Positions 1,302 through 19,854 of a DNA stretch of 64,000 nucleotides are shown here, piece by piece. Each line of letters starts with the position of its first letter. Positions within the stretch are counted from its first letter, which is position 1. Location of the stretch: NCBI GenBank assembly GCA_002733415.1, contig NVVR01000013.1:1-64000 (forward strand). The letters run 5' to 3'. Origin of the DNA: Kordia sp. Lineage in GTDB: Bacteria; Bacteroidota; Bacteroidia; Flavobacteriales; Flavobacteriaceae. Position numbers and translations under genes: made by a program. The notes beneath the pieces are model-generated. The model was not told the DNA's origin and searched no databases. It was given only the letters and a program-made list of their open reading frames with translations.

Positions 1302-4300
1302 ATGAAGAAGACATCATTTTTTCATCGAACAATAGCGATATTTTTAACGCTTAATTTTTTAACAACCATTATTCCTGTCAATCAGCTATACGCTAATAAC
1401 AATGGGCCTAATTCACCTGAGGCAGCAAGTTTTGAGCCAGTTGACGCAACAGATATGGTTAATTTGTTAACAGGAGATTTTAGTTATGTTCTACCTATGT
1501 TAAGTGTTCCCAGCCCTGAAGGGGGGTATCCAATTTCGTTATCTTACCATGGGGGAATTCCGTTAAACCTTGATGCTACATGGGTTGGTTTGGGATGGAA
1601 TTTAAATCCAGGAGCTATAAATAGGACTGTAAGTGGATTTCCGGATGATTGGGGGGAAACAAAAGTTCATGAATTCTTTTATGATGAAGGTTGGACAGAG
1701 GAATATTATAATGTAGGTGTAGGGGGCAATATATATGGAGTAGATGTAGGTATTGGTGCGTCATGGGGGAGTAATAGATCCCTTGGAGGATCTGTTTCAC
1801 TTGGTTTTGCTGGATATAATATTACTGCAGGTAGAGGCAATAGCGTTTCCATTGGTTATGGTAATGGTATTATGTCTGCTAATATCGGAACTAATGGAGT
1901 AGGAGTGGGATTAGGTGTTGGAAAAGGCGCTGGAAAGATAGGTGTAGGTTTAAATTATTCGTGGAATGGCAATTTGTCAGGAAGTATTAGTGGTTCTTTA
2001 TCTGGAACTATTGGAGGAAAAGGTGTTTTTAGTGGGACAAAAGTTTCAAGTAGCATAGGTGTTAGCTTTAATACAAAAGGGTTGTCTGGAGTAACTATTG
2101 CAGGTACTAATGTTAATTTAGGAGGAGGAAATGGCACAGGTGGAAATTATGACGTTCATGAAAGTGGTTTCCATTTTAACGCTTATTTTGGAGTGGTTTG
2201 GGCTTCATTTGGATATACAAAATATAAGTACTCTATACATAAGTATGATAATTTAAACGTAACTGGAGGAGTATACCCGTATCATTCTAGTTACACTAAA
2301 AAAAGAAATACGAGTCACTTATTGGAGGAGAAAAATTTAATGGATGTTAAATCTATAGTCGCTCATAGTTCTTTAGATTTAACTTATAATTTAATTGATG
2401 CAGATTACAGCCTTGACAAAAATAATATTGTACTGCCTAATTATGATAATTATATAGTTAATGCACAAGGATTATCAGGGATAATTAAACCATCAACATA
2501 TGAAGAATTGTTGTTGTCTGATAGAGGGAGAGGAGAACAAAATGAAGATAATTTATATTCAGCTTTTGTAAATAAACCTTTAAGCTATTCAGATTATAGT
2601 TCTGATCTGGGAGGAGATACTCATTTTTATTTTGAGAATTCACATAATTCTTTTTTAAGAGTTAATAAAGGGAATATTGCTCCGCCATTATGGACAAATG
2701 TTACAAGCGCTTCTGATTATTCAGCTTTTTTATTTGGAACAGGTGATACTAATATTGATTATAGTTTAACCCATACTCCTTTGGGGGAAAAATTAATGAA
2801 GGGAAATAAAAAGCGTGAAGGAAATTATATAGAAACGTATACCAATAAGCAAATTAGAGAAGATAATATTTTGGGCTTTATTGAGGCAAGTGGTATAGAT
2901 AGGCAAGAAACGGAAACTTTTTTAGACAGAGGTATTGGAGCATACAAGATTACTACTATAGACGGTAAAACCTATCATTATTCTTTGCCAGTTTATAATT
3001 ATGAATTATTTTTTAAAAGTTTCGGAAATAAAAATAATGAAAATGAAAGTTTTTTTGAAGTTCAAAAAGAAAAACCCTATGCAACCCACTGGTTATTAAC
3101 AGCCGTTACTGGGCCAGATTATATAGATAGTAATGCTGATGGGAAATTAGATGAAGGTGACTATGGGTATTGGGTAGAATTAGATTACGGAAAATGGTCT
3201 GATGGGTATGGTTGGAGAGGACCTAAAGAAGGTTTTGATACTTTTAAGAATAAAGATGGTAAGGAAACTTATTCGTATTATTGGGGAAGAAAGCAGATTT
3301 ATTATTTAGATGCTATAAAAACAAGAACTCATACAGCATTATTTGTAAAAAACCTTAGAGATGATGATTTGTCATCCGGTCTAAACATCTACAATCAAAA
3401 ATGGAATTCGGGTAATTTTAATGAAAACTATTATAGTAAAAGAACTTCAAATTCGATTCCAAAAATAATAGGGCATCCTAATGATAAATTTTATACTAGT
3501 TCTGGAGATGAGCATACAATTATTGAGGTTGATAATTCACAAAACACTCCCCATTATGTGGATTATGTTGGAGCTACAAGCTATATTAAATCTTTATATT
3601 TAGATTCTCCTATAAATAAAAGTTTAAAGCTTGAAAAGATTATTTTATTAAAAAATAAAGATGCAGGTGATTTTAAATCTAATGGTGAATTAATTAATAC
3701 ATTAAAAGGGTATTACTCCTCAAACTTCTGTTATTATAACTTAGGTCATGTAGGACCTAAAAATTTAAATGAACCAAATAATTTGTCAGTAGATGGTTAT
3801 CCTATTCAGCCTCTTTATGAAAATGTTCCATCTTCAATTAAATCATTTGATATAAATCAACATAAAAATGTTTTGGATATAAAAGATATTGAAAATTTAA
3901 ATCTGGAACAAAAAGCCCAGCAATTAATATCTTTTACATATGATTATTCGTTGGCAAAAAATTCATCGAACTCTGAAGCAAATGGAAAAGGACGTTTAAC
4001 ATTAAAAGAAGTTAACTATAAAGGTAAACAAGGACATGATATTGTGCCTCCTTATAAGTTTTCTTACAATGCCGCATCTACTTCCTATAATAAAGAAGAT
4101 AAAGGTGTTTGGGGGTATCATAAAACAATTCCAGAAGTTTGGAGTTTAAATGAAATAACAACCCCAACTGGTGGTAAGATTAAAATTAATTACGAATCTG
4201 ATTCTTATTTTGCAGAAGCGGCTTATAATGACCCAAAAATAGGTTTTTCTAGAAAATATGATGGGCCAATTGAATCAATACCACCTAGTCCTCAGTATTT

Positions 4301-6620
4301 TATAAAGGATGATATTGAAAATTTAAAAGAAATCGGGAATTTATTAGAGGTAACAATAAAAAATCATTCTAACGAAGAAATTAATGAATCGTTTAGAATA
4401 GATAGTAAAGTTAAACTAACATTTAATTATTGGTTGTCTCACAAGCCTGGAAGTGCAATACATGGTCATTATCATAAAAAGTATGATGGAGAATTTAAGG
4501 TAAAATATATTGAAGGGACAAAAATAATTTTAGAGAAATTAATAAATACTCCTAATTATTTCCCTGAATCTGAAATTGATGGTATATCTCAAGAAATTGT
4601 GGATCAACCATTGTATGATTATTATCACGATAATTGGCCTCCAATAGACGGGTTAATGTCATATCAAGAGTATACAAGCTATTTGTCTGCTCCCGGAGAA
4701 ATGAAAAGGTGGATTAAAAACATTACTCTTTTTAAAAATGAAATTATTTATACTAGAAATGATTCTAATGGAAAAAAGGGGGGTGGTTTAAGAGTAAAAT
4801 CATTGCAAGTAGAGGATAATAATAATACTGTAACAACAGAATATTTTTACACTAACCCCAATACTAATAATATTTCAGGAATAACATCTTATGCTCCATC
4901 TGGAGAGCCAAAAGGAGTTCCGTATATTTCAGAAATACCTTCACCTTCGGTTATGTATGGATATGTTGGTATGAAAACCAAAGACGATTCGAATGCGTAT
5001 ATGGGCAAAACCGTTTATCATTTTGAAGTTTTAGAGCCATTTAAAAATAGTTCAGAATATTTATTTAGTATGGGGGATATTTTTAAGGTAAAAGAAATGC
5101 AAAATGAAGGGTTTTTAAACAATGAAATTAAAGCTAATAAATATACGATATATAGTAAACTGTCTAATATTGGAAGATTAAATTGGGTAAAAACATTTAA
5201 TGTGGAAAATCATTTATTAAGCCAAAAGACTAGTAATTACAAAGAATATTTGGATGGTCAAGGAGAAATAGGTGTTACTCAAGAATCTTATAAAAGTATT
5301 AAAAGAGTTAGAAAAAACGGAAACCAAACTTATTACATTAATTCATCTAGTAAAGTGATGTACCCAAGTGTATTAAAAAGCACTTTAATGAGTGCTGGTG
5401 GACAAACATCTAAGACTAGTTATGATAAGTATGATTTTTTAACAGGTCAAGTTTTAGAGACCAGTACAATTAGTAGTGATGGGACTAAATTTAAAACTAA
5501 AGTAGTTCCTGCTTATACTATTACTGAATATTCTGGTGTAACTGGCGGCTATGGTATGGGACCAAAAGTAGATAATGTAACCAACAGTAACATGTTAAGT
5601 CAGGCGGCAGCAAGTTATAGTTATTTGTATGACACTGCTTCAAGTTCTTGGAAAGAAACAGGGGTTGGAATAAGTACTTGGAATAATGCCTGGAGTTATA
5701 GGGATAAGCAAAGTGTTATAACGACACCTACTGTTGCTAAGGAAAAAATTTGGAGAAAACATAAATCTTATGTTTGGAAGGGCGAAATTGATTCAAATGG
5801 AGTGCTTCAAGGTTTCACTAACGATTTTAATTGGGGTGTTGGAGCTGCAGGATTAACTCAGTCATCAGGTTGGCAAAATATTTTAGAAACGACACTTTAT
5901 GATCATTATTCTGTGCCTTTAGAAGTAAGGGATATTAATAATAATTACAGTTCAACTAAAATGGATGTTAATGATGAACGTATTATTGCGGTGTCAAATG
6001 CTAAGTATTCAGAAATGTATTATGCTGATGCCGAGCAGGGAATTGAAGGGCAGTCAATTATTCAGAGAGAGGTAAGAGGACATTCTGTTTCAGAAACTAA
6101 GGCACATACCGGAACTAGATCAGTTAAGGCAACGACTGCGATTAAAGGGTTTGAGGTTACGGGTACATGTGATAGTTTTGGAGTTGATTTTAAGTTAAAT
6201 GATACTTATAAAATATCGGTATGGGTTCATAAAGACAATTATACAAATGCTCGTTTGGTATTTAATGGAGTTTCTAAACAATTTAATGGAGAAATTGTTC
6301 CTGCAGGTGATTGGATATTGATGAATCATTATGAAAAATTTGTTGATCCTAGTTATGTTATTTATACAAGTTCTGCAAATGGTGATGTATATTATGATGA
6401 TTTTAGGTTACATCCAATGGAATCTAGTATGTCAAGTTATGTGTATAATAATTGGGGAGAACTATGGTACATATTAGGGGCAAACAATTTGGCAAGCCGT
6501 TTTGAATATGATGATGAAGGAAGATTAATTAAAACGTATACAGAAGTGATAGACAATGCAACTGTTACAGGTGGTTTTAAATTGTTAAGTGAAAATAATT
6601 ATAATTTTAAATTAAACTAA
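1302..6620 (+). CDS. giant secreted RHS-type protein, cage N-terminal half
   Basis: A 1772-residue protein with an N-terminal signal peptide (residues 1-31, ending QLYANN). The segment after it (about 45-110) has the SpvB/TcB-like opening of Bacteroidota RHS proteins: a VNLLTGDFSYVLPM block and GGIPLNLDATWVGLGWNLN. Residues about 140-285 are strikingly Gly-rich with short GVGxG and GSxSG repeats. The middle has large beta-rich segments and an Asp-rich loop DSNADGKLDEGDYG (about 605). The C-terminus ends in YD-type repeats (FEYDDEGRLIKTY) and carries no RHS core or tip. The next gene, 7 bases on, supplies YD repeats, the core and a tip, so the two probably make one split RHS shell, as TcB and TcC do in Tc toxins. 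No T9SS tail is present. Substrate and target are unknown. Confidence 0.8.
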   Translation: MKKTSFFHRTIAIFLTLNFLTTIIPVNQLYANNNGPNSPEAASFEPVDATDMVNLLTGDFSYVLPMLSVPSPEGGYPISLSYHGGIPLNLDATWVGLGWNLNPGAINRTVSGFPDDWGETKVHEFFYDEGWTEEYYNVGVGGNIYGVDVGIGASWGSNRSLGGSVSLGFAGYNITAGRGNSVSIGYGNGIMSANIGTNGVGVGLGVGKGAGKIGVGLNYSWNGNLSGSISGSLSGTIGGKGVFSGTKVSSSIGVSFNTKGLSGVTIAGTNVNLGGGNGTGGNYDVHESGFHFNAYFGVVWASFGYTKYKYSIHKYDNLNVTGGVYPYHSSYTKKRNTSHLLEEKNLMDVKSIVAHSSLDLTYNLIDADYSLDKNNIVLPNYDNYIVNAQGLSGIIKPSTYEELLLSDRGRGEQNEDNLYSAFVNKPLSYSDYSSDLGGDTHFYFENSHNSFLRVNKGNIAPPLWTNVTSASDYSAFLFGTGDTNIDYSLTHTPLGEKLMKGNKKREGNYIETYTNKQIREDNILGFIEASGIDRQETETFLDRGIGAYKITTIDGKTYHYSLPVYNYELFFKSFGNKNNENESFFEVQKEKPYATHWLLTAVTGPDYIDSNADGKLDEGDYGYWVELDYGKWSDGYGWRGPKEGFDTFKNKDGKETYSYYWGRKQIYYLDAIKTRTHTALFVKNLRDDDLSSGLNIYNQKWNSGNFNENYYSKRTSNSIPKIIGHPNDKFYTSSGDEHTIIEVDNSQNTPHYVDYVGATSYIKSLYLDSPINKSLKLEKIILLKNKDAGDFKSNGELINTLKGYYSSNFCYYNLGHVGPKNLNEPNNLSVDGYPIQPLYENVPSSIKSFDINQHKNVLDIKDIENLNLEQKAQQLISFTYDYSLAKNSSNSEANGKGRLTLKEVNYKGKQGHDIVPPYKFSYNAASTSYNKEDKGVWGYHKTIPEVWSLNEITTPTGGKIKINYESDSYFAEAAYNDPKIGFSRKYDGPIESIPPSPQYFIKDDIENLKEIGNLLEVTIKNHSNEEINESFRIDSKVKLTFNYWLSHKPGSAIHGHYHKKYDGEFKVKYIEGTKIILEKLINTPNYFPESEIDGISQEIVDQPLYDYYHDNWPPIDGLMSYQEYTSYLSAPGEMKRWIKNITLFKNEIIYTRNDSNGKKGGGLRVKSLQVEDNNNTVTTEYFYTNPNTNNISGITSYAPSGEPKGVPYISEIPSPSVMYGYVGMKTKDDSNAYMGKTVYHFEVLEPFKNSSEYLFSMGDIFKVKEMQNEGFLNNEIKANKYTIYSKLSNIGRLNWVKTFNVENHLLSQKTSNYKEYLDGQGEIGVTQESYKSIKRVRKNGNQTYYINSSSKVMYPSVLKSTLMSAGGQTSKTSYDKYDFLTGQVLETSTISSDGTKFKTKVVPAYTITEYSGVTGGYGMGPKVDNVTNSNMLSQAAASYSYLYDTASSSWKETGVGISTWNNAWSYRDKQSVITTPTVAKEKIWRKHKSYVWKGEIDSNGVLQGFTNDFNWGVGAAGLTQSSGWQNILETTLYDHYSVPLEVRDINNNYSSTKMDVNDERIIAVSNAKYSEMYYADAEQGIEGQSIIQREVRGHSVSETKAHTGTRSVKATTAIKGFEVTGTCDSFGVDFKLNDTYKISVWVHKDNYTNARLVFNGVSKQFNGEIVPAGDWILMNHYEKFVDPSYVIYTSSANGDVYYDDFRLHPMESSMSSYVYNNWGELWYILGANNLASRFEYDDEGRLIKTYTEVIDNATVTGGFKLLSENNYNFKLN

Positions 6621-6627
6621 TACAGAA

Positions 6628-9600
6628 ATGAAAAGGATTTTTAAAATTATCGTATTAGTACTGGGTTTTACATGTTTAAATAATGTATTGGCTCAAGAGT
6701 TGACTTTAATGAATAATTTAGGGTTTACTGTAAGCGGGAATCAGTTAAAAACTAGTGGAGGAGGTTCACTTTTTTTAAAAAGTAAAACTAGTCGTCGTCC
6801 TTCTATGCCAACAGTTCAAGCACATATGTTGTCATTAGATGTACTCGAGAGTAGTGCTTCAGGCGGTTATATAGAACTTTCCAATTTTGTGAAGTATGAT
6901 ACTAGTGTACTTATTCCTACAGGAGGCGTAGCTCCAGTTATACCTATGTCAGATGCTGTTTTTAATGTTAAGTTAAGTATTACCGAAATTGATACATATA
7001 GTGCAACTGAAGTTATAGTAAACGGGTACAGCTTAGATTTTGGAAAAAGTCAATTTGTATTACCTGGTACTACAGGAACCTATGTAAAAGCAATTAATAG
7101 AGGTGGTACGATATTAAATACGATATTGCCAACAGTATTTTCTGGATCGGATTCTTTTAGGGTTGAACGTATAGGAAATCAAATCAACTTTAAATACAAT
7201 ACTACTGTTGTGGCTACAACAACAATAGATCCTATTAAAAATTATCGTGTTGCTATTAGCACAAATACAGCAGGATTCCAGTTTAATTATACGTATTCAG
7301 ATTTTGAAATTTCATCATCTAGCTATTCATGTTTACCAGTGACAGATGACAAAAATTGGAATTCAAACTGTGTTTATGATATTGAGGGAAATTTAATAGG
7401 TTCAAGTGTAGATTATTATAATGAACTTGGGAAACCAACGCAAAGCCAGAGTTTGGACTTGAAAACTGGAAAAGTTTGGGCGTCTGAAATACAGTATGAT
7501 GTAGCAGGAAGACCTGCATTTCAAACATTTAATGCGCTAACAAACAACAATTTTGACTATCCATACATCAATGGATTAGTAAGAAAGTCAAATGGAGGGT
7601 ATTACACTCAGCAAGAATGGGAGGTTAATGAATACCCAACAACTATCGGGAGTTTAGAAGGAAGTTTAGGTTGGTATTATAGTGACCTAAATTCCAATGA
7701 ACCTTACCAAGATATAACAGAGTATCCTTTTTTAAAAAAAGTGTACGATGAGTTAAATCCGGGTAAAGTATTAAAAGTGTATGGAGGTAAAAAAGTACGT
7801 TTTACTGACCCCGTTACAGGGCAATCAATAATCACATGGAAAAATGGGTATGCGCATAGCATGCCAGCAGCACAGGAATTGTATTATGCATTTGGAAAAG
7901 ACCATTTTCAAGAGTCTGTTTCTAGTGACATGGTAGATGTTCAAGATTATAATAATGAAAGTACTGGAGAGTATATTTCAGCTTATGTAAGAGAAATTGG
8001 TATTAATCCATGCCTTGAAAGTACTACTTCCATACGAGTAAGATTAAAGGCTACTTTTTTGCCATTAATAAACGAAATTTACTTATTTGAGGATGATAGG
8101 TTTTATAAATTTGTCACAAGTCCTGCGTGGGGAGATGACCCTAATGCTGTTGGGTTTCCATCAATTAAAACAGGGAAATTCCTTTCATGTGGTAATATTT
8201 TAGTTTGGCAGCAAGGTAGTAGTAATGGGAAAATAGTAACCCATAAAGCTATTAAATCAGTTAGGATTGATGTTCAGGATAATGAAGTAGTTTCATTTTC
8301 TGATTTAGAGGGAAAACTGTTGGCTACAGCTAGATCTGGAGGAGCAGATCAGTATGAAGTTGTATCCTTAATAGGGAAGCAAGGTTATATTGACATTCAT
8401 ATTCCATTGGGTTGTGAAAACACATTAAGTTTTATTGGTGGTTCAAGTAATTACAAAGTGTTTGACTTGAGAGAAGGTGTTGAAATTATGGACTTTACGA
8501 CAATAAAAGCAGGTTTTTTTAGAGTTGAAGCTATAAATCAGGATTTATTAAATAGTACAAATAATATCACATACATTGACGAGGCTTCTGGGGCTATTAA
8601 CCCCATGTTTTCTAGTAATTGGGGAGTGCGTTACAAAGTAAATTACTACGATTACGCGTTAAACTATTACAATAAATCAGGGAGTTTAACTAAAACGGTA
8701 CAGCCACTAGGTTTTGATAATCATAATTTTGATTTAACGGTTGCAGTACCTAATCACACCATGCAATCTACTTATGAACAGAATTCTCTTGGGCAGGTGT
8801 TAAAAACGATTAGTCCAGACGAGGGTGAAGCTGAATTTAAATATAGAAAAGACGGTCAAATTCGTTTTTCTCAAAATTCAAAGCAAGTAGCGGTAGGAGA
8901 ATTTTCGTATACCAATTATGATAATAAGGCCAGACCAATAGAAAGTGGAGTGTATCATGGGAATGCCTCTTTTAATGAAGTTAGCAGAATAAACTATACC
9001 TTAGTACATGATGAAGGGGTTGTTAGAAATGAAAATAATATTACTAAAAACATAGCTAGTGGATGGGGTAATGCAGGTTTTTCTTCTCAAGAAAGTGTTT
9101 CGGGAGATTGTAAAGTGAGTTTCAAAATGGGTAATGGTTATTTAATGGTAGGACTTTCTGAGGCTTCAGATGCTGTATCGACAACTGATGATAATTATAC
9201 AAATATTAAATATGCTATTTATGCAGATGGAGGAAACTTTGATGTTTATGAATATGGATTTCACTCAGGAAATAATTTAACAACGTACTTAGTAACTGAT
9301 GTATTGAGTATTGAAAGAGTAGGAAGTACTATTTATTATAAAAAAAATGATGAAGTATTTTTCACTAGAACTAATGCTTCAACTGCTCCTTTAGTAATTG
9401 ATGCTTCTATTTACAGTCAAAATGCAGTTATTCAAAATTTAGAATTCTTTTCTATTATTGATATTACTGCAATAGTAAATACAGATACTACTATATTAGA
9501 CCCTCTTTTTTGTAAAGAACAAACATTTACGAAGTATGATGTGCCTGATTCAAACTTAAGTACTTTGTTAGCTGCCAACGGATTATCGAGTTATTATGGA

Positions 9601-12324
9601 GTACAGTCTTTTGTGGCGGGAAATGTTTCTAAAACAGAGACTAAAACGCCTGAAACGACTCAAACATGGTATAGTTATGATATTTATGGTAGGGTTACAT
9701 GGGTAATTCAGTTTATAAATGAATTGGGTTTAAAAACTATTGATTATGAATATGATGATGTTACAGGAGCGGTAACTAATGTATTTTATCAGAAGCACAA
9801 CCCTAGTGATCGATTTACACATAGGTACAGCTATAATCATGTTGGTGAAATGATAAAAGTAGAAACCTCTACCGATAATACAAACTTTACAGAGCAAGCT
9901 GCCTACACCTATTATGAAAAAGGCGCTTTAAAACGTGTGGAATTAGCAGAAGGGATACAAGGGATTGATTATGTATATAATTTAGATGGTTCTTTAAAAA
10001 GTATAAACCATCCAAGTCTAGATCCTGCAAAGGATCCTGGACATGATGCTAATGATGCTTTTGGTATAACCTTAGATTATCATTTGGACGATTATTCTCG
10101 TAGCAATACTAATATAGCTACCTATCCGTTTGGAGAAAATAGATTGGATGGGAATATTAAAGCGAGCAGATGGGCTACTAAAGGATTGACTGCACCTGGA
10201 ACAAGTAATGCTTATGTATATCAGTATGACAAAAATAAATGGTTGCAACAAGCTACTTTTGGAAATGTTAGTTCAGGGACGAACATAGTAACCACAACTG
10301 ACTATGGTGTTAGTGGAATAACCTATGACGCAAATGGGAATATAAAAACACTAAATAGGACAAAAAATACTGTTTCGAATTCGAACGAAATGGACCAGTT
10401 TACATACAATTATAATTCGGAAACAAATCAATTGAATCATGTAGCTGATGCTGTTTCAACACCAAATTTGTCATCAGATTTAGAAGGACAAACAGCAAAT
10501 AATTATGTGTATAATAGCATAGGGCAATTGGTTAGAAATACAGAGGAGGATGTTGATTATGAGTATAACACTGCTGGTTTGGTAACTAAAGTGGCAGTTT
10601 TGGATAATTTAGGTTATGGTCAAATAGTGGAGTTTACCTATAATGACAAAGGACAACGAGTTAAAAAATTAAGTTCAGAAATAGGGGCTAATGGAACAAA
10701 TAAGAACACTACTTTTTATGTAAGGGATGTGGCAGGTAGCACTATGGCGGTGTATACCATGGCTTGTTTAAACTGTAGAGTGGCAAGTACTGCAAGGAGA
10801 ACCAGTAAAGCGGCTGCAGCTGTTGTCCCCACTGTGCAGGAATACCCTATTTACGGAGCTTCAAGGATTGGGGTGTACCATAAACAAGCGGCTAAGGAAT
10901 CCTACCAGTTAACCGATCATTTAGGAAATGTAAGAGCGGTAATAAGTAAAAACTCTGCGGCATTGGTAATTCCTCCAGTATACGAAAATGATTTTACGAA
11001 TAATTATACCCCTTTTGTTGCTATAGGAGCAGATACAAATTTAAGTATTGCAGGAGAACGTTTAAAGGTGGAAATTATAGGTGCTGATAAAGGAACACAA
11101 GCAAGTTTTGCTTTAACCGCAAACAAAACGTATAAATTGCAATATGATTTAGAAAGAAGCAGTGATTTAAATGGCGATTTTGTATGTCAGGTATCAGACG
11201 GATCAACTATTGTGGGGTCGCAACCAGAAGCCTATTCGGGAAGTAAGTCATTTTTTGTTACACCTACAATGACTGGGAATTATACCTTTATGTTTACCTT
11301 AAGCAATACTACAGTTCCTTCACAATATTTTACATTGGATAACGTTAGCATTACTGATGTAACTACGGATAATGCAACAGTAAGTAATTATACGGATTAT
11401 TATCCCTTTGGTATGCCAATGCCTATCCGTAGATTTACTGATGGTACATACCGTTACGAGTTTCAAGGACAAGAAAAAGATGGTGAAACTGGTAAAGAAG
11501 CGTTTCAATTAAGACTTTGGGATGGGCGTATTGGTAGATGGTTGACTACTGACCCATATGGACAATATAGTTCACCGTATGTAGGTATGGGAAATAATCC
11601 TATTAATGGTATTGACCCAGATGGCGGGTTTACTTGGTTTGGTGCACAATGGCATGCACTTTGGAATGGAGGAGATATATACAAGAAGGAACATTCTGAG
11701 ACTGGCAGGAATTACTATACAGTAGGAAGTACAGCTAAAGATGGTACTGTTATGATGGTTGTTGGAAGAAATGGAGCTGACAGAGCAAAATATGGACCTC
11801 GTTATCCAGCTGGTGCTGGTGGTGGCTTATCTCTTTTAAATTTAAGAACTCCTCCTGACCCAAAAGGTATTCCAAATGTTTATTTTGATGCTAATGCTGC
11901 AATCATTCATGGACAAGTTGGTGCCGATGTCAGATTTTTAGGTTGGAAAGCTGGAGCAACATTAGAATATGCAAAATCATCAAATTATCAATTAGGTTTT
12001 GATTTTGATACATCAAGAGGTAGAGGTGATATGTTCAAGAATACTTCTTTTATCGGAACTAGGTTTGGTGATGATTATGGAGGTGGTCTATCTAAACATG
12101 CTGGAGTATCTGCTAAATTCGACATAAGAACCAATAGGTTAAAAGAGGTTACTGTTAGTGCTCTTGTATCAGAAATAACAAACGAATATCATATAAGAGG
12201 CGTTCATGCAGGTAAGCTTTCTAGAACAAAAATTGGGTTTAACATTGGTGCAGGAGCGGCAGCTTTCTTTGGTGCTGAAGCAGGAATAAAATTTGGAGTA
12301 ATACTTCCAGCCCCAACAAAATAA
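6628..12324 (+). CDS. RHS repeat protein with core domain and variable C-terminal tip
   Basis: A 1898-residue protein with signal peptide (residues 1-22, ending NVLAQ). Lectin or laminin-G-like beta segments appear near residues 40-240 and again near 800-930. YD repeats (for example YEYDDVTGAVTN and ITYDANGNIKT) occupy most of residues 950-1400. A LTDHLGNVRAVI motif lies near 1430. The conserved RHS core (YYPFGMPMP, FQGQEKDGETG, LRLWDGRIGRWLTTDPYG) ends in GIDPDGG at residues 1661-1667. After it comes a 231-residue tip unlike the rest, ending in a Gly/Ala-rich segment; such tips are normally the toxin. I do not recognise its fold or catalytic residues. A small RDD gene follows after 7 bases and is the natural immunity candidate. 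Family role: interbacterial toxin delivery. Confidence 0.85.
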   Translation: MKRIFKIIVLVLGFTCLNNVLAQELTLMNNLGFTVSGNQLKTSGGGSLFLKSKTSRRPSMPTVQAHMLSLDVLESSASGGYIELSNFVKYDTSVLIPTGGVAPVIPMSDAVFNVKLSITEIDTYSATEVIVNGYSLDFGKSQFVLPGTTGTYVKAINRGGTILNTILPTVFSGSDSFRVERIGNQINFKYNTTVVATTTIDPIKNYRVAISTNTAGFQFNYTYSDFEISSSSYSCLPVTDDKNWNSNCVYDIEGNLIGSSVDYYNELGKPTQSQSLDLKTGKVWASEIQYDVAGRPAFQTFNALTNNNFDYPYINGLVRKSNGGYYTQQEWEVNEYPTTIGSLEGSLGWYYSDLNSNEPYQDITEYPFLKKVYDELNPGKVLKVYGGKKVRFTDPVTGQSIITWKNGYAHSMPAAQELYYAFGKDHFQESVSSDMVDVQDYNNESTGEYISAYVREIGINPCLESTTSIRVRLKATFLPLINEIYLFEDDRFYKFVTSPAWGDDPNAVGFPSIKTGKFLSCGNILVWQQGSSNGKIVTHKAIKSVRIDVQDNEVVSFSDLEGKLLATARSGGADQYEVVSLIGKQGYIDIHIPLGCENTLSFIGGSSNYKVFDLREGVEIMDFTTIKAGFFRVEAINQDLLNSTNNITYIDEASGAINPMFSSNWGVRYKVNYYDYALNYYNKSGSLTKTVQPLGFDNHNFDLTVAVPNHTMQSTYEQNSLGQVLKTISPDEGEAEFKYRKDGQIRFSQNSKQVAVGEFSYTNYDNKARPIESGVYHGNASFNEVSRINYTLVHDEGVVRNENNITKNIASGWGNAGFSSQESVSGDCKVSFKMGNGYLMVGLSEASDAVSTTDDNYTNIKYAIYADGGNFDVYEYGFHSGNNLTTYLVTDVLSIERVGSTIYYKKNDEVFFTRTNASTAPLVIDASIYSQNAVIQNLEFFSIIDITAIVNTDTTILDPLFCKEQTFTKYDVPDSNLSTLLAANGLSSYYGVQSFVAGNVSKTETKTPETTQTWYSYDIYGRVTWVIQFINELGLKTIDYEYDDVTGAVTNVFYQKHNPSDRFTHRYSYNHVGEMIKVETSTDNTNFTEQAAYTYYEKGALKRVELAEGIQGIDYVYNLDGSLKSINHPSLDPAKDPGHDANDAFGITLDYHLDDYSRSNTNIATYPFGENRLDGNIKASRWATKGLTAPGTSNAYVYQYDKNKWLQQATFGNVSSGTNIVTTTDYGVSGITYDANGNIKTLNRTKNTVSNSNEMDQFTYNYNSETNQLNHVADAVSTPNLSSDLEGQTANNYVYNSIGQLVRNTEEDVDYEYNTAGLVTKVAVLDNLGYGQIVEFTYNDKGQRVKKLSSEIGANGTNKNTTFYVRDVAGSTMAVYTMACLNCRVASTARRTSKAAAAVVPTVQEYPIYGASRIGVYHKQAAKESYQLTDHLGNVRAVISKNSAALVIPPVYENDFTNNYTPFVAIGADTNLSIAGERLKVEIIGADKGTQASFALTANKTYKLQYDLERSSDLNGDFVCQVSDGSTIVGSQPEAYSGSKSFFVTPTMTGNYTFMFTLSNTTVPSQYFTLDNVSITDVTTDNATVSNYTDYYPFGMPMPIRRFTDGTYRYEFQGQEKDGETGKEAFQLRLWDGRIGRWLTTDPYGQYSSPYVGMGNNPINGIDPDGGFTWFGAQWHALWNGGDIYKKEHSETGRNYYTVGSTAKDGTVMMVVGRNGADRAKYGPRYPAGAGGGLSLLNLRTPPDPKGIPNVYFDANAAIIHGQVGADVRFLGWKAGATLEYAKSSNYQLGFDFDTSRGRGDMFKNTSFIGTRFGDDYGGGLSKHAGVSAKFDIRTNRLKEVTVSALVSEITNEYHIRGVHAGKLSRTKIGFNIGAGAAAFFGAEAGIKFGVILPAPTK

Positions 12325-12331
12325 TGATAAT

Positions 12332-12763
12332 ATGATAAATAAAAACATTTTAAAAAACCAATACGCTAGGAGGGCGATAGCTTTTTATTTTGACAGTTTG
12401 ATTATAACTTTTTTAGCTTTAACATACTTATTTCTTTTTGATAGAGAAGGCCCAACAATTGAATGTGATACTTTATTTTGTTGGAATACAAGTAGAATTG
12501 CAATATTTCAGGTCTTATTCTATATTATTTACTTTTTGTTTATGGAATATTTTTTTCAATTTACTATCGGTAAAAGAATTTTAGGTTTTAGTGTTGCTGG
12601 TGAAAAAAATAAAATGTTCTTTTGGAAAATACTGATGAGAACGTTAATAAGATTAATACCATTAAACATATTTTCTTTTCTGGTAGATAATAATCGATTG
12701 TTTTGGCATGAGAAATGGACAAAAATAATTACTCAGAATAAAAAAAAATTGAATGCATCCTGA
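12332..12763 (+). CDS. RDD-family membrane protein, candidate RHS immunity
   Basis: A 143-residue protein with three predicted membrane helices (about 15-37, 55-78 and 95-118) and RDD-family features: YARRAIAFYFDSLI near the N-terminus with the Arg-Arg and Asp that name the family, and the conserved TIGKRILGF loop. RDD proteins are poorly understood integral membrane proteins. Here the gene starts 7 bases after the RHS tip and is followed by a terminator, which is where RHS immunity genes sit. That makes immunity against the tip encoded at 11626-12324 the leading idea, and would imply a membrane- or envelope-acting toxin. The position is seen; the role is inference. Confidence 0.75.
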   Translation: MINKNILKNQYARRAIAFYFDSLIITFLALTYLFLFDREGPTIECDTLFCWNTSRIAIFQVLFYIIYFLFMEYFFQFTIGKRILGFSVAGEKNKMFFWKILMRTLIRLIPLNIFSFLVDNNRLFWHEKWTKIITQNKKKLNAS

Positions 12764-13593: not shown

Positions 13594-13631
13594 AAAGTTT
13601 TTACAGAGATGTAAGAGCTTTTTTTGTTTTT
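13594..13631. terminator. likely bidirectional terminator
   Basis: An 11-bp stem with G-T pairs (AAAGTTTTTAC with GTAAGAGCTTT) and loop AGAGAT, followed on the plus strand by a run of T and preceded by a run of A. It sits between the convergent lipoprotein and XRE regulator genes and could end both. Confidence 0.65.
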
Positions 13632-13959
13632 AGGAGTATGCTTTTTTGGCATTAAAATCACGAATAAGGGCATCTATAGTAATATATATATGCTCTTTTT
13701 CTTTTGGTGTAAGTTTAGAAACGTGCTCAATACGTTTTAAAAGCTCGCTATCGAGTTCTAAATCGGTATTCCCTACCAAATAATCTAAAGAGATATTTAA
13801 TGCGTTAGCAATTTTAGTAGCCATTTCAATAGTTGGCTTAACTTCGTTACGCTCGTATCTACCATAAGCATCCCCATTAATACTAATGAGTTTACCAACA
13901 TCAGCTTGAGAAAGCTTCTTTCTTTTACGAACTAATCCTAAACGTTCTCCAAAGGTCAT
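13630..13959 (-). CDS. XRE-family helix-turn-helix regulator
   Basis: A 109-residue protein. Residues 4-60 form a Cro/CI-type HTH: RLGLVRKRKKLSQADVGKLI, then the recognition-helix region NGDAYGRYERNEVKPTIE and LNISLDYLVGNTD, which ends the domain. The C-terminal 45 residues are helical and charged and may dimerise it. It is divergent from the orphan toxin-like fragment at 14065-14331. The 140-base gap holds candidate promoters in both directions and a 14-bp palindrome, so autoregulation and repression of the downstream module are plausible. Confidence 0.88.
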   Translation of the reverse strand: MTFGERLGLVRKRKKLSQADVGKLISINGDAYGRYERNEVKPTIEMATKIANALNISLDYLVGNTDLELDSELLKRIEHVSKLTPKEKEHIYITIDALIRDFNAKKAYS

Positions 13960-14336: not shown

Positions 14337-14804
14337 ATGATTAGAAATAAAGAGGGATTAGAGGCGTTTTTAAAACAATTCATTGTAGATAACTTTTTAA
14401 TTAGTTCAAAATTTGAGTTAATTAAAAAAATATTAGTTAAAATTGATTTTGATAAAACATCAATTTTTATAGAGGATATTATTGACGAAGTATGTGTTAT
14501 CTTTTCTTTAAAAGAGCCAGATTTCCAAAATTCAGGAGAATTTAGTTTTTTTTTAAGGGATACAAACACAAAAATTTATCTTTATGGAAAAAAAATTAGA
14601 ATAGATGAAGATTCTGGTGCTTGTTTTAATAAAACGTTTGAGTTAATCACAATGATTTTAAATGGTGAATATAAATTAAATAGAAAGTATAAAGAAAATG
14701 AAGTTATATCTTATGAGGTATTAATAAATGAAAAAAGCCATACAGACTTTAATAGTAATAATGGAATTAATCTGTTTGTTAACTCTAATAAGGATAACGT
14801 GTAA
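14337..14804 (+). CDS. immunity-like hypothetical protein
   Basis: A 155-residue soluble protein, acidic and Lys-rich, with no signal peptide or membrane segment. The N-terminal half is helical (EGLEAFLKQFIVDNF then FELIKKILVKID); the C-terminal half has beta-like segments (DTNTKIYLYGKKIRI). I do not recognise a family. The ATG comes 5 bases after the stop of the toxin-tip-like fragment, and the size and composition fit an immunity protein retained after loss of its toxin. That role is inference from position. Confidence 0.6.
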   Translation: MIRNKEGLEAFLKQFIVDNFLISSKFELIKKILVKIDFDKTSIFIEDIIDEVCVIFSLKEPDFQNSGEFSFFLRDTNTKIYLYGKKIRIDEDSGACFNKTFELITMILNGEYKLNRKYKENEVISYEVLINEKSHTDFNSNNGINLFVNSNKDNV

Positions 14805-15462: not shown

Positions 15463-18400
15463 ATGAAGTTACATCTATTGTTAAAATATGTTTCGAACAG
15501 TAGTGTTCTAGTGCTGTTATTAATATTGTTTACCAATCAAATACATGCTCAAGCAGAGGCTAATAATTGGTATTTTGGCTCTTTTGCAGGCTTGAATTTT
15601 AGTACAGGAGCCCCGGTTGCTCTCACGGATGGTGCTTTAAACACTGATGAGGGCTGCGCTACTATATCTGACAGTAATGGAGAATTGTTGTTTTATACCA
15701 GTGGAGAAAAAGCGTGGGATAAGAGCCATAATGTAATGCCTAATGGTATGGGGCTTATGGGAGATCTATCCAGTAGTCAATCAGCTATAATTGTTCCTTT
15801 TCCTAATGATGCCAATAAATATTATTTGTTTACAGTAAGATTTGTGAATTATGGGTTGTATTACAGCGTTGTAGACATGTCTTTAAACGGTGGTTTAGGA
15901 GATATTGTAGCTACACAGAAAAATATTAATTTACTAACGAAGTGCACTGAAAAGATTGCAGCTGTTTTACATGCTGATGAGGATAGTTATTGGGTGTTAA
16001 CTTATGCGCCAAATGATTATACAACATCCTATAGTAATGATACTTTTTACGCATATAAAATTACAGGAACTGGTATAGAGTCACCTATTAAATCAGTAAC
16101 AACATATAGTGCCATTGAGCCAAAAGGTTACCTTAAAATTTCACCTCAAGGAGATAAAATAGCTATATGTCATCAATATTTGACACAAGCATATGTGTAT
16201 GATTTTGATAATGCTACAGGAGTTGTAGCTAACGAGCTTATTTTGCCTGTAGGAGGAATACCATATTCGGCAGAGTTTTCTCCTTCGGGTAAAAAATTAT
16301 ATGTGAGTACTGGCTCCTATTATACTAGTAGTGTAAATAACCTCTATCAGTTTGATATGGAAAACGCTGATATTGCTAGTTCTAGAGTAACAATAGAGGA
16401 ATACCTTGCTATACGTTCTTCATTACAATTAGCTATAGATGGTAAAATATATAGGTCCCAGGACAATGCTGAGTATTTAGGGGTTATTAATGATCCAGAA
16501 GCTGGTGGTGCTGCTTGTAATTATGTAAGAAATGCAATTTATTTAAACGGGGCAATTTGTAGAGAAGGCTTACCTCCGTTTATACAATCGTACTTTTTAA
16601 CTAAAATTAAGGTTAGTAATGTCTGTATGGGAGATGTTACTCAATTTGAATTTACGTCTAATCAAGCCATAGATACTGCTTTGTGGGATTTTGGTGATGG
16701 TACTAGCTCCACACTAGAAAATCCAAGTCATGTATATGCATCAGAAGGTGATTACAATGTAATACTTACGGTAACAGTTGGAGGGGAAACATCAACGGAC
16801 ACAAAAACGGTAACTATTTATGCGCAACCAACAGCGCAACAAGCTCAAAATATGTCAGTTTGTGATGATGATAATGATGGTTTCTATTCATTTGATTTAA
16901 CAACGCAAAACACAGTAATATTAAACGGGCAATCCCCTAATAATTTTGAAGTGGTTTATTATGCTTCATTACTAGATTATACTAACAATGTACCAATTAA
17001 TAACCCTACAACTTATGTAAATACCACTGCATATACTCCTCAAAATATTGTTGCTAGCGTAAGAAATATAAGTAACCGAGTTTGTGAGGCTAACACCTCT
17101 TTTGTAATTGAGGTATTTGAAACACCTAATCCAAGCCAAAACATACCCTCTTTATCCTTTTGTGATAATGTGAGTGTTGGTACTGATAGCGATGGGATTA
17201 CTGCTTTTGATTTAACAGTACATGAAGCTACTATTTTAAATGGTCAATCGGCAACTGATTACACTATTACTTATTATACAGATTCAGGACTAACTAATCA
17301 AATCGCTACTCCTAATAGCTATCAAAATACGAATCCAACTGAAACAATATATGTTCAGGTAAGCAACAATTCTAATACAAATTGTAAAGCAAATACCTCA
17401 TTTGCAATTGAAGTACATGAATTGCCCGTAGTTGCTACAACAGTTATATTAAAGCAATGTGATGATAATTTAGATGGGTATAGTGTATTTAATCTTATTG
17501 AGGTAATTAATGAAATTTCAGTTAATGCTAATAATGAAACCATAACTTTTCATGAGTCGTTATCAGATGCTGAAAATAATGTGAATCAGATAACTAATGT
17601 AATCGCTTATAGTAATCAAACAGTTAATACGGATATATTATGGTCGCGAGTTGAAAATGCTAATGGCTGTTATAGAATTACACAAATAAATTTAGTGGTA
17701 TCTACCACACAAATACCAAATACATTTACGAGAAACTTTTTTGAGTGTGATGATGCAATTGACGGAGATACTACTAATGGGATTTCATCATTTGATTTTA
17801 GTACAGTTACTGCAGAAATACAAGGCTTGTTTCCAGTAGGGCAACAACTAATTATAAGGTATTATAGGAATCAAGCGGATGCATTATCAGAAAGTAACTC
17901 GATTACAGATATTACTGATTACAGAAATGTTGGCTCTCCAATTACACAAGAAATTTTTATACGTGTTGATAGTGCATTAGATAATGATTGTTTAGGCTTA
18001 GGAAGTCATGTTACATTGCATGTAGAAACCGTTCCTGTTGCAAATCCAGTAACTATAAATGAACAATGTGATACTGATGGAGATGGAATGTTTGCATTTG
18101 ATACAAATGCCATCGAAGCTACAATATTAAACGGGCAAACTAATACTAATATTACGTATTTAGATGAAAATGGGAACATATTACCTAATCCGCTACCTAA
18201 TCCATTTACAACGGCTACACAAGCTATAACAGTACGTGTTGAAAATACTACATCGCAAGATATCGATGGTGTATGTTTTGATGAAACTACCATTAATTTT
18301 GTTGTACAGGCTGCTGCTGTAGCAAATTCGGTACCCGATTTTAATGTTTGCGATGATAATGGAGATGGATTATTTGCATTTGATACTTCAAGTATAGAAG

Positions 18401-19854
18401 CAACGGTGCTAAATGGACAAACAGGGATGGTTGTTGCCTATTATGATGCTAATGGAGCGGTATTAGCGAGTCCTTTACCTAATCCGTTTACAACGGCAAC
18501 CCAAACAGTTACTGTTAAAGTTGAAAATGTGTTGAGTGCTATTTGTTTTGACGAAACTACAATTGATTTTGCTGTTCATGAACAACCTGAGGCATACACA
18601 ATAGCAAATGATTTTGTGTGTGATGATGTTACAAATGATGGTGAACATGAGTTTATATTATCTGATTTTAATACTCAAATTTTAAACGGACAACCATCAC
18701 AAATTTTTGAAGTAGTTTATTTTAATAGTATGACCAATGCTACTTCTAATGTAAATCCACTTTCAAACAATTATAGTTGTACAACAACTTCTGAAACTAT
18801 TTATGCTAGAATTCAAAATAGTAATAACACTGATTGTTTTGATATTACTTCTTTTGAAATAGGAGTTTCCTATTTGCCAATAGCAACACAACCAACTGAC
18901 TTGAGTGTTTGTGATGATGAAAGTAATGATGGTTTTGAGATGTTTAATCTAACAAATCAAAATATTGAGATTTTAAACGGTTTGTCAAATACAGATTACA
19001 CGCTTAGTTATTTTGAGTCGATAACAGATGCTCAGCAGAATGTTAGTGCTATAAATACTACTTATGAGAATGTGAGTAATCCGCAAACTATTTATGTTAG
19101 ATTAGAAAACAATACCAATACGGATTGCTATACAACAACATCCTTTCAGCTGATAGTAAATGAGCAACCAAATTTGTCAATGCAAGAGCAATGGTCAATT
19201 TGTGAAAATGGTACTGTAGAAATTATTGCTGATAGCGGTTATAATGAGTATTTATGGTCAACAGGAGAAGTTACCTCATCTATAACAGTTGATTTAGCAG
19301 GAACATATCAAGTAACCGCTGCTAATATATATGGTAATTTACGATGTGAAACCTCAAAAACAATAACAGTAGTAGAATCCAATGTAGCCACAATAACGGA
19401 TATTGATATAGTGGATTGGACTATGAATAATAATGTGATTACCGTTTTTGTTGATGGCTTAGGTGATTATGAGTATTCTATTGACGGTGTTGAGTTTCAA
19501 GATGAAAATCAGTTTTCAAATGTAAGTATAGGTGATTATATAGTTTATGTAAGAGATAAAAATGGTTGCGGGGTGGAGACAGAAGATGTACTATTATTGT
19601 ATTACCCTCAATTCTTCACACCTAATGGTGACGGCATAAATGATACTTGGCAATTGATAAATGCTTTTTATGAGCCATTAAACAAATTGCAAATTTTTGA
19701 TCGATATGGTAAGTTTATCCGTGAAATTAAACCCAATGAACTTGGTTGGGATGGTACTTATCGAGGAAATCAATTACCATCATCGGATTATTGGTTTGTA
19801 CTGTACAGGCAAAACGGAAAACAATACAGAGGGCATTTTAGTCTGAAAAGATAA
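15463..19854 (+). CDS. large T9SS type B surface protein with PKD domain
   Basis: A 1463-residue protein with a signal peptide (ending QIHAQ, residue 30). Residues 30-385 look like the beta-propeller head of this family (NNWYFGSFAGLNFSTGAP). A PKD domain follows near 405-455 (ALWDFGDGTSSTLENPSHVY). Then about eight modules of 90-105 residues begin with a CDDxxDG motif followed by FDLxxxxxxILNGQ, starting near residues 466, 565, 664, 760, 866, 961, 1051 and 1148. The Asp-rich motifs may bind calcium. The C-terminal 85 residues are the type B (gliding-motility) sorting domain: FFTPNGDGINDTW, LQIFDRYGK and SSDYWFVL. It should be exported by T9SS and attached to the cell surface or released. A likely adhesin; ligand unknown. 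Confidence 0.9.
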   Translation: MKLHLLLKYVSNSSVLVLLLILFTNQIHAQAEANNWYFGSFAGLNFSTGAPVALTDGALNTDEGCATISDSNGELLFYTSGEKAWDKSHNVMPNGMGLMGDLSSSQSAIIVPFPNDANKYYLFTVRFVNYGLYYSVVDMSLNGGLGDIVATQKNINLLTKCTEKIAAVLHADEDSYWVLTYAPNDYTTSYSNDTFYAYKITGTGIESPIKSVTTYSAIEPKGYLKISPQGDKIAICHQYLTQAYVYDFDNATGVVANELILPVGGIPYSAEFSPSGKKLYVSTGSYYTSSVNNLYQFDMENADIASSRVTIEEYLAIRSSLQLAIDGKIYRSQDNAEYLGVINDPEAGGAACNYVRNAIYLNGAICREGLPPFIQSYFLTKIKVSNVCMGDVTQFEFTSNQAIDTALWDFGDGTSSTLENPSHVYASEGDYNVILTVTVGGETSTDTKTVTIYAQPTAQQAQNMSVCDDDNDGFYSFDLTTQNTVILNGQSPNNFEVVYYASLLDYTNNVPINNPTTYVNTTAYTPQNIVASVRNISNRVCEANTSFVIEVFETPNPSQNIPSLSFCDNVSVGTDSDGITAFDLTVHEATILNGQSATDYTITYYTDSGLTNQIATPNSYQNTNPTETIYVQVSNNSNTNCKANTSFAIEVHELPVVATTVILKQCDDNLDGYSVFNLIEVINEISVNANNETITFHESLSDAENNVNQITNVIAYSNQTVNTDILWSRVENANGCYRITQINLVVSTTQIPNTFTRNFFECDDAIDGDTTNGISSFDFSTVTAEIQGLFPVGQQLIIRYYRNQADALSESNSITDITDYRNVGSPITQEIFIRVDSALDNDCLGLGSHVTLHVETVPVANPVTINEQCDTDGDGMFAFDTNAIEATILNGQTNTNITYLDENGNILPNPLPNPFTTATQAITVRVENTTSQDIDGVCFDETTINFVVQAAAVANSVPDFNVCDDNGDGLFAFDTSSIEATVLNGQTGMVVAYYDANGAVLASPLPNPFTTATQTVTVKVENVLSAICFDETTIDFAVHEQPEAYTIANDFVCDDVTNDGEHEFILSDFNTQILNGQPSQIFEVVYFNSMTNATSNVNPLSNNYSCTTTSETIYARIQNSNNTDCFDITSFEIGVSYLPIATQPTDLSVCDDESNDGFEMFNLTNQNIEILNGLSNTDYTLSYFESITDAQQNVSAINTTYENVSNPQTIYVRLENNTNTDCYTTTSFQLIVNEQPNLSMQEQWSICENGTVEIIADSGYNEYLWSTGEVTSSITVDLAGTYQVTAANIYGNLRCETSKTITVVESNVATITDIDIVDWTMNNNVITVFVDGLGDYEYSIDGVEFQDENQFSNVSIGDYIVYVRDKNGCGVETEDVLLLYYPQFFTPNGDGINDTWQLINAFYEPLNKLQIFDRYGKFIREIKPNELGWDGTYRGNQLPSSDYWFVLYRQNGKQYRGHFSLKR

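Follow-up and report, generated by a model that had tools for sequence, protein, structure and literature searches.

Known Rhs toxins, membrane toxins and RDD proteins

The best-described systems resembling the locus analyzed here are the Rhs/YD-repeat polymorphic toxins catalogued by Zhang et al., 2012 (PMC3482391). These proteins have a signal peptide, YD repeats, an Rhs-associated core and a DPxG motif, and they end in a variable tip which is followed directly by a small downstream gene. For Rhs proteins an aspartyl-protease motif, DPXGX18DPXG, has been described (PMC10684867). One member studied in detail is Tse5 with its partner Tsi5 (PMC10684867, PMC9637101), a system of a proteobacterium delivered by a T6SS, in which an Rhs shell with an autoproteolytic DPXG motif carries a C-terminal toxin that acts on membranes as a pore-former.

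Other toxins are of interest because of their antidotes. TelE and EsxX, which are glycine-zipper LXG toxins, and the CDI ionophores are helical toxins with a Gly-rich C-terminus and are countered by membrane proteins which are not RDD proteins (PMC10434224, PMC12744356, PMC11630599). Effectors that depolarise membranes are usually countered by polytopic membrane proteins (PMC12744356, PMC11630599).

The RDD proteins (PF06271) are common bacterial membrane proteins of which little is known as to function; in the literature we found no more than a study of one antiporter and a remark about a site within the membrane. The first concerns a Na+(Li+,K+)/H+ antiporter of Halobacillus andaensis, in which the Asp D154 is indispensable whereas the first Arg and Asp are dispensable (PMC5996927). 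The second reports a conserved site of RDD domains that lies within the membrane and faces the cytoplasm, as well as frequent fusions of these domains to the lipid-acting VanZ (PMC12419801). Full-text searches of open-licence papers gave no report of an RDD protein as immunity protein of a polymorphic toxin, and the part of the text of the Zhang et al. catalogue that was available to us does not mention RDD.

The window, by which we mean the whole stretch of 64,000 nucleotides of Kordia sp. DNA that was analyzed, contains an Rhs gene followed by an RDD gene (Table 1). We consider it rather likely that the two genes form a polymorphic toxin-immunity cassette in which the RDD protein is the antidote and the tip acts at the cytoplasmic membrane. 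The original prediction had proposed such a pair, and the layout of the genes, together with RDD genes linked independently to Rhs genes in three other genomes, speaks for it.

Table 1. Features of the Rhs-RDD locus (positions are those of the window).
Feature	Position	Strand	Remarks
Large signal-peptide ORF, 1772 aa, companion protein	1302..6620	+	7 bp upstream of the Rhs gene; from gene order
Rhs/YD-repeat delivery body with Sec signal peptide, ending with Rhs-associated core and DPYG-X17-DPDG	6628..11625	+	TIGR03696, 9on3_A
Variable C-terminal tip, candidate toxin, 232 aa plus stop	11626..12324	+	without detectable relative
Gly/Ala-rich C-terminal stretch of the tip, residues 204-227	12235..12306	+	Gly/Ala at every fourth position, also strand-like alternation
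RDD-family membrane protein P0002, 143 aa, candidate immunity protein	12332..12763	+	PF06271
XRE-type HTH regulator, convergent with the Rhs-RDD cassette	13630..13959	-	C-terminal half resembles the L200 remnant

The Rhs protein

The reading frame 6628-12324 encodes a product of 1898 aa with a Sec-type signal peptide. A profile search places the TIGR03696 Rhs-associated core at residues 1591-1666 (E 5e-13), and the core also matches PDB entry 9on3_A (E 5.5e-13). The core is terminated by DPYG-X17-DPDG, which is close to the aspartyl-protease motif of Rhs proteins (PMC10684867), and beyond GIDPDG the frame runs on into the tip. The coding span of the tip is 11626-12321, which gives 232 residues, or the 231 of the original prediction when the first G is assigned to the motif. 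The large companion ORF in front of the Rhs gene has no match in Pfam; a protein of the same type also precedes an Rhs gene in another genome (L227 in G146), so that the two-gene order is identical there.

The window protein thus shares with the catalogued Rhs toxins (PMC3482391) the signal peptide, the YD repeats, the core, the DPxG motif, the variable tip and the small gene directly downstream. It differs in that its tip has no Pfam or NCBIfam toxin domain and that its small gene belongs to a family unmentioned in the available part of that text. The length of the tip is typical when compared with 101 tips sampled in the family, most of which have about 200-270 aa. With Tse5 it shares the shell, the motif and the C-terminal position of the tip; the comparison was made by sequence only and gives no link between the two toxins.

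The same genome has another Rhs gene (L038, on contig G000:C82) with a tip of 431 aa that reads as a HINT domain plus a toxin, the HINT domain being assigned by eye and not by a profile. A gene of 122 aa lies 15 bp downstream of that tip, which is the classic layout of a polymorphic toxin. The Rhs proteins of this genome therefore look like polymorphic toxins.

The tip

The tip had been described as matching no recognised toxin fold, and indeed searches of Pfam, NCBIfam, PHROG, PADLOC and PDB sequences with a limit of E = 1 gave no match. Relatives were found neither in 59 mixed relatives or 399 genomes of the same family nor in a collection of 85,000 species, in IMG/VR viral contigs or in plasmids. 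Against 5,858 ORFs of the fetched loci the best E-value was not below 1.4 (phmmer with filters off). The search for the tip on other delivery proteins, suggested with the original prediction, came out empty: neither such a fusion nor an orphan cassette was found in any of the collections searched. Fusions to other delivery proteins and orphan cassettes are common for many polymorphic toxin domains, and they are not obligatory for each of them.

The Gly/Ala-rich end that had been pointed out is real. Glycine and alanine make up 26.3% of the tip, a content which only one of 98 other family tips reaches (mean 17.3%). Gly or Ala occupies every fourth position at G204, G208, A212, G216, G220 and G224, and a spacing of this kind over six positions arises in 1% of the shuffles of the whole tip and in 0.04% of the shuffles of the tail. 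Such a spacing would be expected of a helical glycine-zipper ionophore of the TelE, EsxX or CDI type, and membrane proteins do counter the known glycine-zipper toxins (PMC11630599, PMC12744356). We nevertheless hold this to be an improbable explanation of the tip. A plain GxxxGxxxG appears in half of the tip shuffles and carries little weight, the stretch also has the alternation of a beta-strand, and the hydropathy of the tip peaks at 1.43, no segment reaching the helix threshold. In beta-type periodicity, compared with 98 other tips, the window tip takes 5th place, and the tip of the other intact Rhs-RDD pair (L202, see below) takes 2nd place. Both RDD-paired tips look beta-rich, which argues against a helical zipper, and a beta-rich tip is weakly favoured. 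The likeness to TelE, EsxX and the CDI ionophores would then be limited to the Gly-rich C-terminus and to the membrane protein which is the candidate antidote. AlphaFold2 modelling of the tip, made from a single sequence, gave a mean pLDDT of 34, too low for a fold search.

The RDD protein

The start codon of the small gene lies 7 bp past the stop codon of the tip on the same strand, and its assignment to the RDD family, made in the original prediction, is borne out by a PF06271 match of 39.4 bits (cut-off 24.1, E 9e-10) for the product of 12332-12763. P0002 is the sole RDD match in the window genome, which is roughly 90% complete. Close relatives were absent from the 85,000-species collection and from plasmids. 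RDD proteins as such occur in 214 of 300 genomes of the family, the strongest among the matches listed being mostly longer than P0002.

An AlphaFold2 model from 63 sequences (mean pLDDT 88, pTM 0.80) has membrane helices at 4-36 and 52-74, linked by an acidic loop, a further helix at 97-108 and a C-terminus that carries positive charge. The model has no significant counterpart in the PDB (best E 0.49). The positive-inside rule would put both ends of the protein in the cytoplasm. P0002 resembles the family, including the H. andaensis antiporter (PMC5996927), in its match above the cut-off, in the Arg and first Asp of the signature, which are Arg14 and Asp21, and in the arrangement of its membrane segments. 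It is different in being shorter, in standing behind an Rhs tip and in having Glu127 (WHE) in place of the signature's second Asp, which is its third residue. At this position, in the HD motif, 97% of the 90 sequences that cover it have Asp. Glu is found in only three of the 90, namely in the window and at L172 and L173, and all three are linked to Rhs genes.

The altered residue bears on the possibility that the RDD protein is a cation/proton antiporter which offsets an ion leak caused by the tip. The antiporter of H. andaensis (PMC5996927) gives this idea its basis, but the Asp indispensable for antiport (D154, beside His) is the residue that is Glu in the Rhs-linked clade. A specific 1:1 antidote is moreover the norm for toxin-immunity cassettes of this kind. 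We regard antiport as very improbable.

The tip could also be an enzyme or a binding domain directed at a lipid-linked or envelope substrate, in which case the RDD protein would occupy or handle that substrate through its intramembrane site and not bind a pore. This would agree with the reported cytoplasm-facing site and the frequent fusions to VanZ (PMC12419801), with the retention of Arg14, Asp21, Lys81 and Arg103, which are conserved residues, in P0002, and with the composition of the tip, which is that of a globular protein without a clear membrane helix. The tip has, however, no recognisable catalytic motif and belongs to no recognisable enzyme family, and the changed third residue of the signature points to something other than plain retention of the ancestral function. 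We judge such a substrate-directed tip to be unlikely.

Genes downstream of other Rhs tips

In 95 of the 101 sampled family Rhs tips an ORF of at least 60 aa follows within 300 bp, and the operon-like layout of tip and RDD gene is therefore not a matter of chance. Nine of these 95 genes encode polytopic proteins, for which at least three membrane segments are predicted. None of the nine is an RDD gene, unlike P0002, and an RDD neighbour was found at none of the 101 tips; about 130 Rhs regions picked from the Rhs side (L038-L171) likewise contained no RDD gene. Membrane antidotes would thus be an ordinary minority and RDD unusual among them, in keeping with the earlier statement that RDD proteins are not a usual immunity class.

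RDD genes at other Rhs loci

The reverse check, looking for Rhs genes next to relatives of the RDD protein, supports the pairing. Relatives were gathered by a search with P0002 of 399 genomes of the family and 395 of the class, and the flanks were checked at 98 RDD loci from other genomes. Two of the 98 lie directly at Rhs tip ends, one of them intact (L202) and one decayed (L200/L173). The number of adjacencies expected is about 0.05 (P about 0.001, approximate); this expectation was computed for genomes of an assumed 3,300 genes with about 1.6 Rhs cores each, and ignores the uneven numbers of Rhs genes (16 in G098).

At L202 a complete Rhs tip of 228 aa after DPDG is followed 36 bp on by an RDD gene of 133 aa (PF06271 E 9e-13), and after this comes another small membrane gene. 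The L202 tip has no homolog in 60 relatives. It gives no alignment with the window tip, which, like the separate clade of its RDD protein (see below), counts against the cassette. At L200/L173 the end of an Rhs core, MGNNPASNVDPSSG, runs in frame into a fragment of an RDD protein (PF06271 E 4e-6) which has no first helix. Transposases adjoin, the Rhs frame is broken, and by its sequence this is a decayed Rhs-RDD locus.

The closest relative of P0002, with 39-40% identity (E 1e-23), is the L172 protein of G146. Its gene is the last of an array of co-directional small genes, among them membrane and lipoprotein genes, which starts about 15 kb upstream with an Rhs pair (L199+L227; G146:C3, about 82-102 kb). 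The array includes an orphan tip cassette with a DPDG junction, its cassettes are spaced by 6-7 degenerate repeats of 66-108 nt, and it looks like a repeat-spaced array of orphan tips and immunity genes.

In the RDD tree the window protein and that of L172 form a supported clade (99/93); the L173 protein, being a fragment, was not placed. The proteins of L202 and L215 form a separate clade, distinguished by its C-terminus; Rhs loci thus seem to have taken up RDD proteins on at least two occasions. The gene at L215, whose product is closest to the L202 protein, is surrounded by housekeeping genes with no Rhs gene within reach.

These data also bear on the view of the RDD gene as a bystander, with immunity conferred by the lipoprotein P0004 or by 14337-14804, or with a tip that is not a toxin at all. 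RDD proteins are found in 71% of the family genomes and nearly all of them are located away from Rhs genes, and no tip homolog that might show tip and RDD gene inherited together was found among the collections searched. Against a bystander stand the position of the RDD gene immediately downstream of the tip, with a gap of 144 bp before P0004, the independent Rhs-RDD links in three further genomes, which are above chance, and the confinement of the Glu subclass to Rhs loci. We find the bystander view unlikely; the RDD protein is probably the antidote to the Rhs tip.

A model for the proposed cassette

The model that we prefer postulates that the Rhs shell carries the tip of 232 residues, which would be cut off at the DPxG-X17-DPxG motif and passed to an adjacent cell. 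The product of the next gene, the RDD protein, would reside in the cytoplasmic membrane of the producer and block the tip there. In this model the gene order, the RDD assignment, the recurrence of RDD genes at Rhs loci and the Glu subclass are observations, and toxicity, immunity and a membrane target are inferred from them. Because the candidate antidote is embedded in the membrane, the likeliest place of action of the tip would be in or at the cytoplasmic membrane; a membrane action, already proposed in the original prediction, is plausible. The tip might insert amphipathic beta-hairpins, or it might hit a membrane substrate guarded by the RDD protein. An RDD domain type with two membrane helices, an amphipathic helix at the membrane surface and Glu for the signature Asp would have been recruited to Rhs loci repeatedly.

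A more far-reaching idea, which we put forward tentatively as possible but short of probable, is that the RDD proteins include a recurrent, unrecognised class of Rhs immunity proteins, one clade of which has the Asp-to-Glu change in the HD motif, and that these are paired with a new type of beta-rich toxin that acts on the cytoplasmic membrane. If this is true the RDD family gains a function that can be tested, the toxins become probes of RDD binding, and the Asp-to-Glu change is a simple marker for finding further Rhs-RDD pairs.

Further RDD loci and neighbouring genes

Short RDD proteins of about 120-130 aa with an IHD or LHD motif make up a distinct clade, which was seen in many genera of the family (L207, L208, L210, L212-L214 and L218); the flanks fetched for it are free of Rhs hallmarks. 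At L203 (G029:C10, 1-4656) an RDD gene lies amid orphan-like small genes. Its companions include a DUF2199 protein with marginal similarity to Imm33 and a DUF7000 protein with marginal similarity to Imm26, both similarities being below the cut-off, and this may possibly be an immunity island.

In the window the C-terminal half of the convergent XRE regulator resembles a remnant, likewise convergent, which is fused behind a DDE transposase at L200 (E 7e-12); this is an association only. The Rhs locus is adjoined at 15463-19854, on the + strand, by a gene for a large PKD protein with a CHU_C type IX secretion signal.
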